This document shows, in pieces, positions 32,317 to 35,681 of a stretch of 64,000 nucleotides of DNA. The stretch spans positions 62,001 through 126,000 of the forward strand of contig CATLDC010000001.1 of the NCBI GenBank assembly GCA_949902595.1. The letters run 5' to 3'. Both the position numbers and the translations under genes were made by a program. How positions within the stretch are numbered: position 1 is the first letter of the stretch; each line of letters starts with the position of its first letter. This DNA comes from an uncultured Candidatus Melainabacteria bacterium. GTDB lineage: Bacteria; Cyanobacteriota; Vampirovibrionia; Gastranaerophilales; Gastranaerophilaceae. The notes beneath the pieces are model-generated. The model saw nothing but the letters and a program-made list of their open reading frames with translations, was not told the DNA's origin and ran no database searches.

Positions 32317-32350
32317 GCAAAAATAAAAGCTGTAGAAATAATCTACAGCT
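32317..32350 (-). terminator. Intrinsic terminator of the sigma-28 small gene
   Basis: AGCTGTAGA … TCTACAGCT stem (32328-32350) followed on the minus strand by TTTTATTTTTG. It closes the short transcription unit 32617-32317. Confidence 0.85.
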
Positions 32351-32403
32351 CTTTAATTGGAGGAAAATGTATATTTTTGAGGGGGGTAAATAGGGGTAAG
32401 TAA

Positions 32404-32559
32404 TTATACAGTGACTTCTTCTTTGAAATAGTCGACAACTGTGTCTAACACATTATCAAAGAAGAAGTCCAATTCTTGTGACAATGTTACCTCTGTTGAA
32501 TTCATTTGTAAGTTTGCTTCTGTGTTGAATCTTGATAACATTTCGTTTTCGATACGCAT
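32404..32559 (-). CDS. Small acidic protein from a sigma-28 promoter
   Basis: 51 residues (MRIENEMLSRFNTEANLQMN … LDFFFDNVLDTVVDYFKEEV …), acidic, amphipathic C-terminal helix, no signal peptide. AAAGGA lies 7 bases before the ATG. It is the only gene between a near-perfect FliA promoter (32617-32643) and a terminator, so it is a dedicated late-flagellar transcript. Candidates include a filament-class chaperone or an anti-sigma-like protein; sequence does not match FlgM clearly. No family recognised. Confidence 0.7.
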   Translation of the reverse strand: MRIENEMLSRFNTEANLQMNSTEVTLSQELDFFFDNVLDTVVDYFKEEVTV

Positions 32560-32616
32560 ATTCTAAATCCTTTCCTGTATAATTCTCTGGGGTTTATGTT
32601 TTTGCTTACACTTTTT

Positions 32617-32643
32617 ATATCGGCATTTTTTTGAAAAACTTTA
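32617..32643 (-). promoter_or_regulatory. Sigma-28 (FliA) promoter
   Basis: Minus strand TAAAGTTT (complement of 32636-32643), 11 bp, GCCGATAT (complement of 32617-32624). The enterobacterial FliA consensus is TAAAGTTT-N11-GCCGATAA, so this matches 15 of 16 positions with exact spacing. Confidence 0.88.
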
Positions 32644-32684
32644 GGGTTTTGAGAGATTTTGTTACAATTGTTTACATCTCCTTA

Positions 32685-32720: not shown

Positions 32721-33914
32721 ATGAAGAGAAAAATATTGTTTATATCACAGGAATCCATCCTGAACGCCATGAACGGCGCGACCCAGATGTTCTACTACAT
32801 GGCAAACCAGTTTGCACAAAGGGGTTATGAAGTTGTTGCAGCCTACCCGCACCTCGACAATCCGGTTGAGGATGCGAGACTTTGCAGCAATGTCAAGTTC
32901 TACAACCTTAACTACGTTGACACACAGGGGTTTAAATCCAAAAGAAGAGCGCCTTCTATCATTGACAAGATAATAAGAAAGCGTACGCAGTCGATTGTTG
33001 ACCTGCTAAAAATCGATTTACTCTCGGACAAAATTGAGGCGGTTGTGGAAAAGGAAAAGCCGGACGTGATTGTGCCGTTTTTTGCGCATGTCACATGCCA
33101 GCTCGTGTTTGAGAAGAAATACGAGATACCTATTATCCAGATGAATCACACCCACCCTTCAATGTACTACTCCAAGATTAACCCGTTCAAAAAAGACGTT
33201 CAGCCGATGGGGCTTTTGTTCTGGCACTGTGTTAAAAAAGCCGGCTACTTGCAGGTGTTTTTTGAAAGTTACGCGGATTATCTAAAAAACTGCCTCAAAA
33301 ACAAAACGGTCGTAATCCACAACCCCGTTCCAAAGGCGGTCATGCCGGCAAATCCGGAGGAGGAGAAGAAAAAGATAATATATCTTTCAAGGATAGACAA
33401 GAACAAGGGTCAGAGCCTGCTTATAGACGCGTTCTCAATTATTGCAAAGCTTTATCCGGACTGGGAAGTCTTGCTCTACGGCGATGCGGAGCCAAAGGAG
33501 TACGGGAAGATTATTCAGGCAAAGATAAAGAATTACGGGCTAGAAAACCAGGTTAAGCTCATGGGTGTGACAAATCAGGTTGAGGAAGTGTTGAGAAGCG
33601 CTGACATCGGCGCTTACACAAGCCTGTACGAAGGCTTCCCGCTCGGTCTGTCACAGGCGCTCGCAACAGGGGTTCCATGCATTGGTCTGCGCTCTGCAAG
33701 CGGGGTCAACGAGTTGATATCAGACGAGCGCAACGGGCTGCTTTGTGAGAACGAGCCGGAAGATATTGCCATGAAGCTTGTGAAGCTCATGGATGACAAG
33801 GAGTTGCGCATAAAGTACTCTCAAAACGCCATAAAATCCATGGAGAAGTATTCTGAAGAGGCGTTTTTCGAAAAGTGGGAAGACATTATTGAAAAAGCGG
33901 TTACTCGTAGTTAG
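32721..33914 (+). CDS. Family 4 glycosyltransferase
   Basis: 397 residues, GT-B fold. The C-terminal donor domain has KIIYLSRIDKNKGQSLLIDA, GDAEPKEYGKI, ADIGAYTSLYEGFPLGLSQA and the E-x7-E type segment ending in EPEDIAMKLV. It would add a sugar to a cell-surface glycan from a nucleotide donor, in the cytoplasm. A single-gene unit with its own promoter; 3' end overlaps a minus-strand gene by 14 bases. Confidence 0.92.
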   Translation: MKRKILFISQESILNAMNGATQMFYYMANQFAQRGYEVVAAYPHLDNPVEDARLCSNVKFYNLNYVDTQGFKSKRRAPSIIDKIIRKRTQSIVDLLKIDLLSDKIEAVVEKEKPDVIVPFFAHVTCQLVFEKKYEIPIIQMNHTHPSMYYSKINPFKKDVQPMGLLFWHCVKKAGYLQVFFESYADYLKNCLKNKTVVIHNPVPKAVMPANPEEEKKKIIYLSRIDKNKGQSLLIDAFSIIAKLYPDWEVLLYGDAEPKEYGKIIQAKIKNYGLENQVKLMGVTNQVEEVLRSADIGAYTSLYEGFPLGLSQALATGVPCIGLRSASGVNELISDERNGLLCENEPEDIAMKLVKLMDDKELRIKYSQNAIKSMEKYSEEAFFEKWEDIIEKAVTRS

Positions 33915-34278
33915 CAAGTGATTGAATCGCTCTCATTGTGTAGAGGTTGAAATCATCAAAGTTGTTGTGTTCAATGCTTTTCTTGCACTCTTCCTGTTTG
34001 GTCTCCGGATTGTCAAGAAGTTGAAGTTCTTCTTCGATTTCTTTTCCTGCTGCAATAAAATCATTGATACAGTTTTCGTTAGAGGAGGCTTTGTAAAAAC
34101 TGTAGGAAAGCTCACGTGCTTTATATACTTTGCCATGAAAATCAAGTTCAAGGTTTCCACCGCTTGCCTCGTCCATGTTTCTGATGTGGATTGCAAGGTT
34201 CATCAGGTCAACAGAGACCCTCTGTTGTTGTTCATTCAGGCTGCTATTGGGGTTAAATTTAAATTCTACCTTATCCAT
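33901..34278 (-). CDS. Hypothetical protein, third gene of sigma-28 unit
   Basis: 125 residues, soluble, acidic, predicted mostly helical (LNEQQQRVSVDLMNLAIHIR). No family recognised. It follows the EF-hand-like gene by 18 bases, so it is likely on the transcript started at 35655-35681. Confidence 0.65.
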   Translation of the reverse strand: MDKVEFKFNPNSSLNEQQQRVSVDLMNLAIHIRNMDEASGGNLELDFHGKVYKARELSYSFYKASSNENCINDFIAAGKEIEEELQLLDNPETKQEECKKSIEHNNFDDFNLYTMRAIQSLANYE

Positions 34279-34296: not shown

Positions 34297-34842
34297 CTAG
34301 TCCCAGTCCCAGTTAAACAGTCTGTATGCAAATTCCTGAATCGGGTTGCTAAATACAGGTGTTTTACCTTCACCCAGGCGTATAAACTTCTGCGCGTTCT
34401 TGTCATTAAGCTGATAGTTGTGCCACGTATCAGGGTTTGAAGGCGTTTCATTGTATTTTGAATCACGTGATACCAAATCCATGTGGTGTTCCTCACCACT
34501 AGCCATAGTAAGAACGCATTTTACAGGCTTTCCGTCTTTGTAGTAGAAAGTCTGCTGAGAATTATCCTTCAAAGACAAGCACTTTTTGGAAGTCTTCCCG
34601 CTCTGGTCTTTTTCCTCGTAATAAACAGAATACCCGTCACAAGAAGAAATTGCAAAATTGTTATATTTCTTCAAGAAATCGTTTATTTCTTTATTTTCTA
34701 ACAAACCGTTGCCGTCTTTATCAAACTCCTTAGCTTTTTCAAACACTGAACTATTCTTGATGGAATTAAGTTCAATGTCTCCGTTGTCGTTAACCTTTAA
34801 AACATTTTGAGGCGTTGTATCGCCAGTTTTGTTTACATTCAT
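34297..34842 (-). CDS. EF-hand-like protein in sigma-28 unit
   Basis: 181 residues from ATG 34842. A longer frame to 34905 would overlap the upstream coding region by 59 bases, so this start, four bases after the preceding stop, is preferred. DKDGNGLLENKE is a canonical 12-residue EF-hand calcium loop, and VNDNGDIELNS earlier looks like a degenerate partner. The rest has no recognised domain. It could bind calcium. No signal peptide at this start. Confidence 0.65.
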   Translation of the reverse strand: MNVNKTGDTTPQNVLKVNDNGDIELNSIKNSSVFEKAKEFDKDGNGLLENKEINDFLKKYNNFAISSCDGYSVYYEEKDQSGKTSKKCLSLKDNSQQTFYYKDGKPVKCVLTMASGEEHHMDLVSRDSKYNETPSNPDTWHNYQLNDKNAQKFIRLGEGKTPVFSNPIQEFAYRLFNWDWD

Positions 34843-34846
34843 ATTT

Positions 34847-35623
34847 TTACAATCCAGCTCCTGTTGAAGATCCATAATGAACATAGCCCGTAGTAGAGCT
34901 GCCATAAATTATCCCACCACCTATTCCAGCATTTCTACAAGCATTACCTATAGACGTTCCTTCTGTAGTAGGATCAGCAGCAGTAGATGCAATCCACTCT
35001 CCACCGGTTAAAGCAAGTCCGGCCAGAGCTAAAGGACTACAGCATAAACCTGTTTCAATAGTATGTAGTGCAAGAGCAGCACCTGATGTCTTTCCCTGAG
35101 CATAGTTCGAAACATCATTAGCTAATGCAAACAGAGCGCCTGCTGTACCCAATTTACCGGCAAGCTTAGAAAGTGTACCTGTAGTACTGCCGGCCATAAG
35201 AGCCGCAGCAGTATTTCTTACTGCTTTACTGTTTTTCGCAGCTGTAATTACCCCGGATTTTGCAGCATCAACAATCGTAGAATATGTGCTTCCCCAATCA
35301 GCAACAGTATCATCCAGCCCGTCCCAGTAGTTTCCGATTCTTGAGTTTCCGTCGCTTCCTGATGTATAACCGTTTGTGCTGCCAGCAACCGGGCTGTATC
35401 CGGTTGTTCCGGTTGAAGAATTTGGAGTGTACGCTTGAGTTGTCATGCCAGCAGTTGAATAGCCTTGAGTGGTGTATGCCTGAGTCGTCATGCCGGTAGT
35501 TGAATATCCTTGGGTAGTATACGCCTGCGTAGTCATACCTTGTGTAGAATATCCCTGGGTTGTATAGCCTTTTGTGGTATATCCATGTGTAGAAGGCATG
35601 TTCGAATAATTACCAAAGCTCAT
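34847..35623 (-). CDS. Tyr/Thr/Gln repeat protein from a sigma-28 promoter
   Basis: 258 residues. The N-terminal ~65 residues are tandem repeats of a GY(S/T)TQG and GMTTQAYTTQ type, a low-complexity, adhesive-looking sequence. Residues ~105-258 are Gly/Ala-rich with weak hydrophobic stretches (LSKLAGKLGTAGALFALAND). No classical signal peptide. AAAGGAG lies before the ATG, and a FliA promoter at 35655-35681. Late flagellar regulation suggests an extracellular, perhaps type III exported, protein used with motility. Family not recognised. Confidence 0.75.
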   Translation of the reverse strand: MSFGNYSNMPSTHGYTTKGYTTQGYSTQGMTTQAYTTQGYSTTGMTTQAYTTQGYSTAGMTTQAYTPNSSTGTTGYSPVAGSTNGYTSGSDGNSRIGNYWDGLDDTVADWGSTYSTIVDAAKSGVITAAKNSKAVRNTAAALMAGSTTGTLSKLAGKLGTAGALFALANDVSNYAQGKTSGAALALHTIETGLCCSPLALAGLALTGGEWIASTAADPTTEGTSIGNACRNAGIGGGIIYGSSTTGYVHYGSSTGAGL

Positions 35624-35654: not shown

Positions 35655-35681
35655 ATAACGGCAGTTTTTTGAAAAACTTTA
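35655..35681 (-). promoter_or_regulatory. Sigma-28 (FliA) promoter
   Basis: Minus strand TAAAGTTT (complement of 35674-35681), 11 bp, GCCGTTAT (complement of 35655-35662): 14 of 16 consensus positions with exact spacing. The flanking CCCTAAAGTTTTTCAAAAAA is shared with the promoter at 32617-32643. Confidence 0.85.

Follow-up and report, generated by a model that had tools for sequence, protein, structure and literature searches.

A 51-codon frame in the window, by which we mean the whole 64-kb stretch of DNA analysed (64,000 nt), is confirmed as a real gene that evolves as a protein. Its product, an acidic microprotein encoded behind a sigma-28 (FliA)-type promoter, more likely acts as a regulator within a broader sigma-28 programme than as an aid to filament assembly. 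We also observed upstream of the promoter a TGTAA tandem box that is phase-locked to sigma-28 promoters, which is a new observation.

The microprotein gene and its conservation

Contig C1, which carries the window, belongs to a genome of 2.1 Mb; the closest named relatives of this genome are Candidatus Gastranaerophilales genomes, many of them from rumen. On the minus strand, the locus reads tandem box, sigma-28 core, ribosome site, microprotein gene, terminator, and then two genes in the same direction that we take, by recognition of their sequences, to be comEB and ribD (Table 1). Because the terminator precedes comEB, the microprotein unit looks monocistronic. The initial annotation had described a single-gene unit with a terminator; both were found, the terminator lying just beyond the interval that had been given for the unit.

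Table 1. Features of the microprotein locus in window coordinates.
Feature	Position	Strand	Evidence or remark
HLR1-like tandem box GTTACAAT-TG-TTTACATC (+ strand); TGTAAAC...TGTAAC for the gene	32661..32678	-	17/18; putative activator site
Sigma-28 (FliA)-type core promoter TAAAGTTT-N11-GCCGATAT	32617..32643	-	15/16; 14-16/16 in 30/30 copies; halves at 32643-32636 and 32624-32617
Ribosome-binding site AGGAAAGGA	32568..32576	-	Direct reading; kept in nearly all orthologs
51-aa acidic microprotein gene MRIENEMLSRFN...LSQELDFFFDNVLDTVVDYFKEEVTV	32404..32559	-	Start ATG at 32559, stop at 32404, 51 codons; genus-wide conservation, dN/dS 0.18, homologs in 5 further genera
Intrinsic terminator between microprotein gene and comEB	32325..32353	-	12-bp stem, then T-rich tail

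Homologs were found in 32 of the 33 other genomes of the genus (Candidatus Gastranaerophilales) at 60-100% identity, and all 30 genus copies inspected had the same start, a kept stop and an open frame. Synonymous change was far commoner than non-synonymous change (pS 0.59, pN 0.18; median dN/dS 0.18). The N-terminal dozen residues (pN 0.07) and the C-terminal 22 (pN 0.06) were nearly invariant, and the linker between them had a pN of 0.49. Thus the tiny, easily missed acidic gene with a ribosome site that the initial annotation had pointed out is borne out, as is its 15/16 FliA promoter with exact 11-bp spacing. When relatives were searched for the protein together with such a promoter, as had been suggested there, both proved to be conserved, and the lack of conservation named as counting against the proposal was not seen.

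The microprotein has a net charge of -8, and the members of its family are about 46-53 residues long. Its C-terminal block is amphipathic as a helix, with a moment of 0.46 that is equally high in 0.65% of shuffles, and the charged as well as the hydrophobic residues of this helix are near-invariant. AlphaFold2 modelled the protein as a single helix spanning residues 2-50 (pLDDT 74.5). Searches of Pfam, NCBIfam and PDB gave no usable relative. In the library scans, in which four members were compared with Pfam-A and 19 members with NCBIfam, no match was obtained to the flagellar chaperone models FliS, FliT and FlgN, and chaperone, needle and substrate families in general gave none either.

Within the genus, the gene mostly stands beside a neighbour that we read as dnaN (46 of 66 loci); in the genus g31, it adjoins a gene read as alanine racemase, and elsewhere it has other neighbours. 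The neighbours are non-flagellar and differ from genus to genus. The gene thus has the appearance of a free-standing unit, with neighbours as would be expected of a free-standing regulator. A recurring element, ACTCAAAAATATACATTT (window 32365-32382), follows the stop codon in most orthologs of the genus, and in two other cases, L033 and the sigma-28 gene of L250, it was found in the leader instead. This element may be a transcript element of the sigma-28 regulon.

Sigma-28 sites and the upstream tandem box

The promoter matches 15 of the 16 positions of the consensus TAAAGTTT-N11-GCCGATAA. Five sites with at most three mismatches were found in the 64-kb window, against 1.2 expected, and that of the microprotein gene was the best of them. 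All 30 genus copies had a promoter of 14-16/16 with the exact 11-bp spacing, located 69-102 nt before the ATG, whereas the maximum in shuffled upstream regions was 13/16 in 3000 trials and never 14. In this genome, 35 sites with at most two mismatches were observed, as compared with 4 for a reversed control pattern; just four sites score higher than the microprotein promoter, which is accordingly among the best FliA matches there.

The other genes behind good sigma-28 sites in this genome mostly encode proteins with no recognised domains. None of the 13 flagellin upstream regions examined in this genome had a 14/16 FliA site: the best upstream scores of six flagellin genes with located starts were 10-11/16, and seven further upstream stretches had no site above 13/16. 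Thus the promoter is FliA-type, but the genes found downstream of promoters of this kind are not those of the filament.

Several other sigma-28-type sites were seen. One of 14/16 (window 35655-35681, minus strand) precedes the gene of a repeat-rich 258-aa protein with MTTQAYTTQGYST repeats (34847-35623), which is followed by same-direction frames at 34297-34905 (202 aa) and 33901-34278 (125 aa). Elsewhere in the genome, two proteins with identical N-termini, MGMAASQARLLTITARMHDVEYQAQS, are encoded at C2:6447 and C4:162-188 (L005 and L007) behind perfect sigma-28 half-sites with 12-bp spacing.

The tandem TGTAA box lies 17 bp upstream of the promoter, and its two boxes are 10 bp apart; in the 64-kb window, the tandem TGTAA[AC]-N4-TGTAA[AC] occurs at the microprotein gene only. 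Counted from the initial T of TAAAGTTT, TGTAA[AC] stands exactly at -33 and -23 in 28 of 30 genus copies. We surveyed the box in 0.985 Mb of this genome, about half of it. Among the 21 sigma-28 sites in this sample, TGTAA[AC] was present at -23 in 16 and at -33 in 11, and same-strand pairs of TGTAA[AC] numbered 41 at a distance of 10 bp versus at most 5 at any other distance up to 30. The tandem WWTGTAAM-NN-WWTGTAAM was found 28 times, as against 0.15 in shuffles. Of these 28 tandems, nine stand in front of a sigma-28 core. Further ones lie before flagellins whose core is different (L181, L186, L249, L257) and before additional unknown proteins. The shared tandem box is what most clearly ties the microprotein to the flagellins, and since some flagellins share it, an activator common to the microprotein gene and the flagellum is plausible. 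Two other core types, CGTTATTAAT...AATGTGGAATTATATAA and a TATATAC-type, were seen behind tandem boxes preceding flagellins or unknown proteins (L181, L186, L257, L259, L270), a pattern that a single activator working with several sigma factors would give.

Read on the other strand, the window box agrees with HLR1, KTTACAWW-N2-KTTACAWW, at 17 of 18 positions. In cyanobacteria, RpaB activates through HLR1 located at about -66 to -45 (PMC13421787). Assuming that transcription starts 7 nt after the -10 element, the window box would be located at about -68 to -51. The roughly half of this genome that was read holds two OmpR-family response regulators, at L257:16763-17467 and L184:1020-1724, both on the minus strand; with about 37% identity to an approximate RpaB-like query, they are candidates for the role of RpaB.

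FliA, export genes and diverged homologs

This genome has one FliA (TIGR02479, 234 bits, above the curated cut-off). On C18, an export cluster encodes FHIPEP and FlhB-family proteins, one of each, behind genes that read as FliP, FliQ and FliR, and a second, flagellar-derived cluster on C3 contains FliE, FliF, FliH and FHIPEP proteins. In a comparison of 382 class genomes, almost every member of the family had the C3-type FHIPEP (E about 1e-215), but the flagellar-type copy represented on C18 (E about 1e-260) occurred in just some genera. A FliA ortholog was present in 80 of 80 genomes tested, being 56-100% identical within the family, and was retained also in genera with only the C3-type FHIPEP.

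The genome further gave 19 flagellin-N matches, many of which lie in very long frames of up to 2619 aa (C1:162442, C4:96477, C14:23997, C20:9712). A link to flagellin through weak single-sequence matches in proteins of about 580 aa was dropped, as these proteins have membrane-like start segments and no flagellin N-terminus. The stretch C15:13009-14905 (L178:5010-6900) encodes, in this order, a FlhB/YscU homolog and a short sigma-70 region 4 protein, possibly an export-linked sigma factor; a sigma-28-type site comes next.

For FlgM, no genome of the family gave a match above the Pfam cut-off, whereas some genomes in other families of the class did; a recognisable anti-sigma-28 therefore seems to be absent from the family. 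Weak FlgM matches in this genome were rejected because the frames look unrelated. The microprotein itself had no Pfam FlgM match, and profile-profile comparison with the FlgMs of the class gave an hhalign probability near zero, so that its identity as a FlgM was rejected.

With the profile A2, shorter or diverged homologs were detected in five further genera, g31, g44, g37, g21 and g20. In all of these, a core of the sigma-28 type (TAAAG-N15-CCG) lies ahead of the gene, together with a TGTAA box whose position relative to TAAAG is -23 or -22. The g20 and g21 homologs are weak by sequence (E 3e-6 to 0.018), and their assignment leans on the common promoter architecture. Flagellar-type FlhA is present in g31 and g44 and was not found in g37, g21 and g20, where the absence of flagella is judged from the FHIPEP search. 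Published work infers that functional flagella were lost in parts of the order (PMC4040986). In genome G181 of g20, which is without flagellar-type FlhA, the sole sigma-28-type site in the 80 kb sampled is that at the microprotein gene; the 186 kb surveyed in genomes without flagellar-type FlhA held too few sigma-28 sites to describe a regulon. Most copies of the microprotein were found in genomes having flagellar-type FlhA. The profile search detected no homolog in many genera of the family that have FliA and the C3-type export system. Profile matches in G068, which has no promoter, and in G304, which has in-frame stops, were rejected as chance.

Candidate function and comparison with known systems

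Our tentatively favoured explanation is that the acidic, one-helix microprotein acts as a regulator, docking through the amphipathic helix at its C-terminus on a partner in the sigma-28/type III export programme. FliA holoenzyme would transcribe its gene together with the other sigma-28 targets, whose products may be exported by the flagellar-derived type III system that the family retains, and an OmpR/RpaB-like regulator would gate the gene via the HLR1-like box. The microprotein would remain cytoplasmic, and its helix would dock onto a single protein. Sigma-28 or its activator is the likeliest candidate, with the microprotein as a feedback regulator after the manner of FlgM or DegR; a component of the export apparatus or of a chaperone system would be a less likely partner. 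A regulator is favoured because the gene ranks with the best-conserved of the single-gene targets seen, because the family has no recognisable FlgM and because tiny regulators are known. The strong purifying selection and the two short blocks with a free linker between them also speak for a regulator, as do the amphipathic single helix, the high rank of the promoter among FliA matches, its pairing with the gene in the five further genera, the lone site in G181 and the retention of FliA. The one-helix model without a fold, the lack of FlgM homology and the weak sequence similarity of the g20 and g21 homologs speak against it. The microprotein may act like an anti-sigma factor, but we do not file it as a FlgM. 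An obligatory sigma regulator would not be expected to lack a detectable homolog in so many FliA-bearing genera, unless the protein has diverged further there. A bolder proposal is that the microprotein founds a class of sigma-28 partners not described before, as an anti-sigma factor or co-regulator replacing FlgM in this family, in a regulon where sigma-28 is uncoupled from the flagellins and placed under an HLR1-binding RpaB-like regulator inherited from the ancestor common with photosynthetic cyanobacteria; this we regard as rather doubtful.

An export or structural role is compatible with the same anatomy. The main rival explanation, which is possible if on the unlikely side, is that the microprotein belongs to the flagellar-derived type III export system, which the family keeps even without flagellar-type FlhA, as a part of it, a chaperone for it or a small substrate. 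Nearly all genomes of the family have the second FHIPEP with its FliE, FliF and FliH neighbours, the other sigma-28 targets are large domain-less proteins that could be exported, and the variable N-terminal part ahead of the conserved helix would suit an export substrate; however, the libraries searched gave no match to the families expected of such a protein, the gene lies away from the export genes, and it was undetected in many genera having the system. A membrane-binding amphipathic helix or a proteolysis adaptor, to which the sigma-28 promoter would be incidental, is quite unlikely: a single strongly amphipathic helix suits many partners, but the near-invariant charged and hydrophobic residues suggest a specific protein interface over lipid binding.

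Even less probable is a dedicated late-flagellar factor, a chaperone or regulator of filament assembly, as the initial annotation had proposed. The FliA-type promoter, the occurrence of most copies in genomes with flagellar-type FlhA and the tandem box common to flagellin genes are consistent with it, but homologs with the same promoter type occur in g37, g20 and g21, which have only the non-flagellar-type FHIPEP, the flagellins examined have no good FliA sites, and the models of FliS, FliT and FlgN found no match. Hence, of the regulator or chaperone suggested at that time, the regulator is retained as a possibility, and neither the filament-assembly chaperone nor the late-flagellar label is supported. 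Finally, it is hardly credible that the frame is untranslated, as a conserved small RNA or a chance open frame: the short unit with a strong promoter and a terminator would suit this, but the codon-level selection and the frames open in all copies have in practice already refuted it.

Taken together, these findings describe a protein family that is absent from the reference libraries searched and occurs in widespread uncultured gut bacteria, and whose promoter and conserved helix provide a handle for testing. They indicate that in this bacterial family the flagellar sigma factor persists after the flagellar export genes are gone and is used for other genes. Because the phase-locked box of the sigma-28 promoters matches the cyanobacterial RpaB site, the relation of a light-acclimation regulator's site to secretion and motility genes becomes testable in a dark-living sister group.

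FlgM is an anti-sigma-28 factor made from a sigma-28 promoter, with a variable N-terminal and a conserved helical C-terminal part. The microprotein resembles FlgM (PF04316) in this small-regulator logic, in the promoter and in the arrangement of the two parts; it differs in having no profile similarity, in being about half the usual FlgM size and modelled as one helix, and in being retained where flagellar-type FlhA was not found. DegR is made from a sigma-D promoter. In Bacillus subtilis, this tiny regulator protects a phosphorylated response regulator (PMC4348106). The likeness between DegR (60 aa) and the microprotein is that of a tiny regulator to a putative one of similar size. Chlamydia is non-flagellated, and its HctB is a basic histone-like protein, which differs from the acidic microprotein. 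With hctB and tsp as sigma-28 targets in an organism that has very few sigma-28 promoters, Chlamydia is the best parallel for a sigma-28 surviving with few targets (PMC3333780). With the RpaB/HLR1 system of cyanobacteria (PMC13421787), the locus shares an 18-bp tandem, which with the assumed transcription start would lie near the position from which RpaB activates; here, in contrast, the tandem keeps a constant phase to sigma-28 cores, the lineage is non-photosynthetic, and two OmpR-type regulators are the candidates for binding it.
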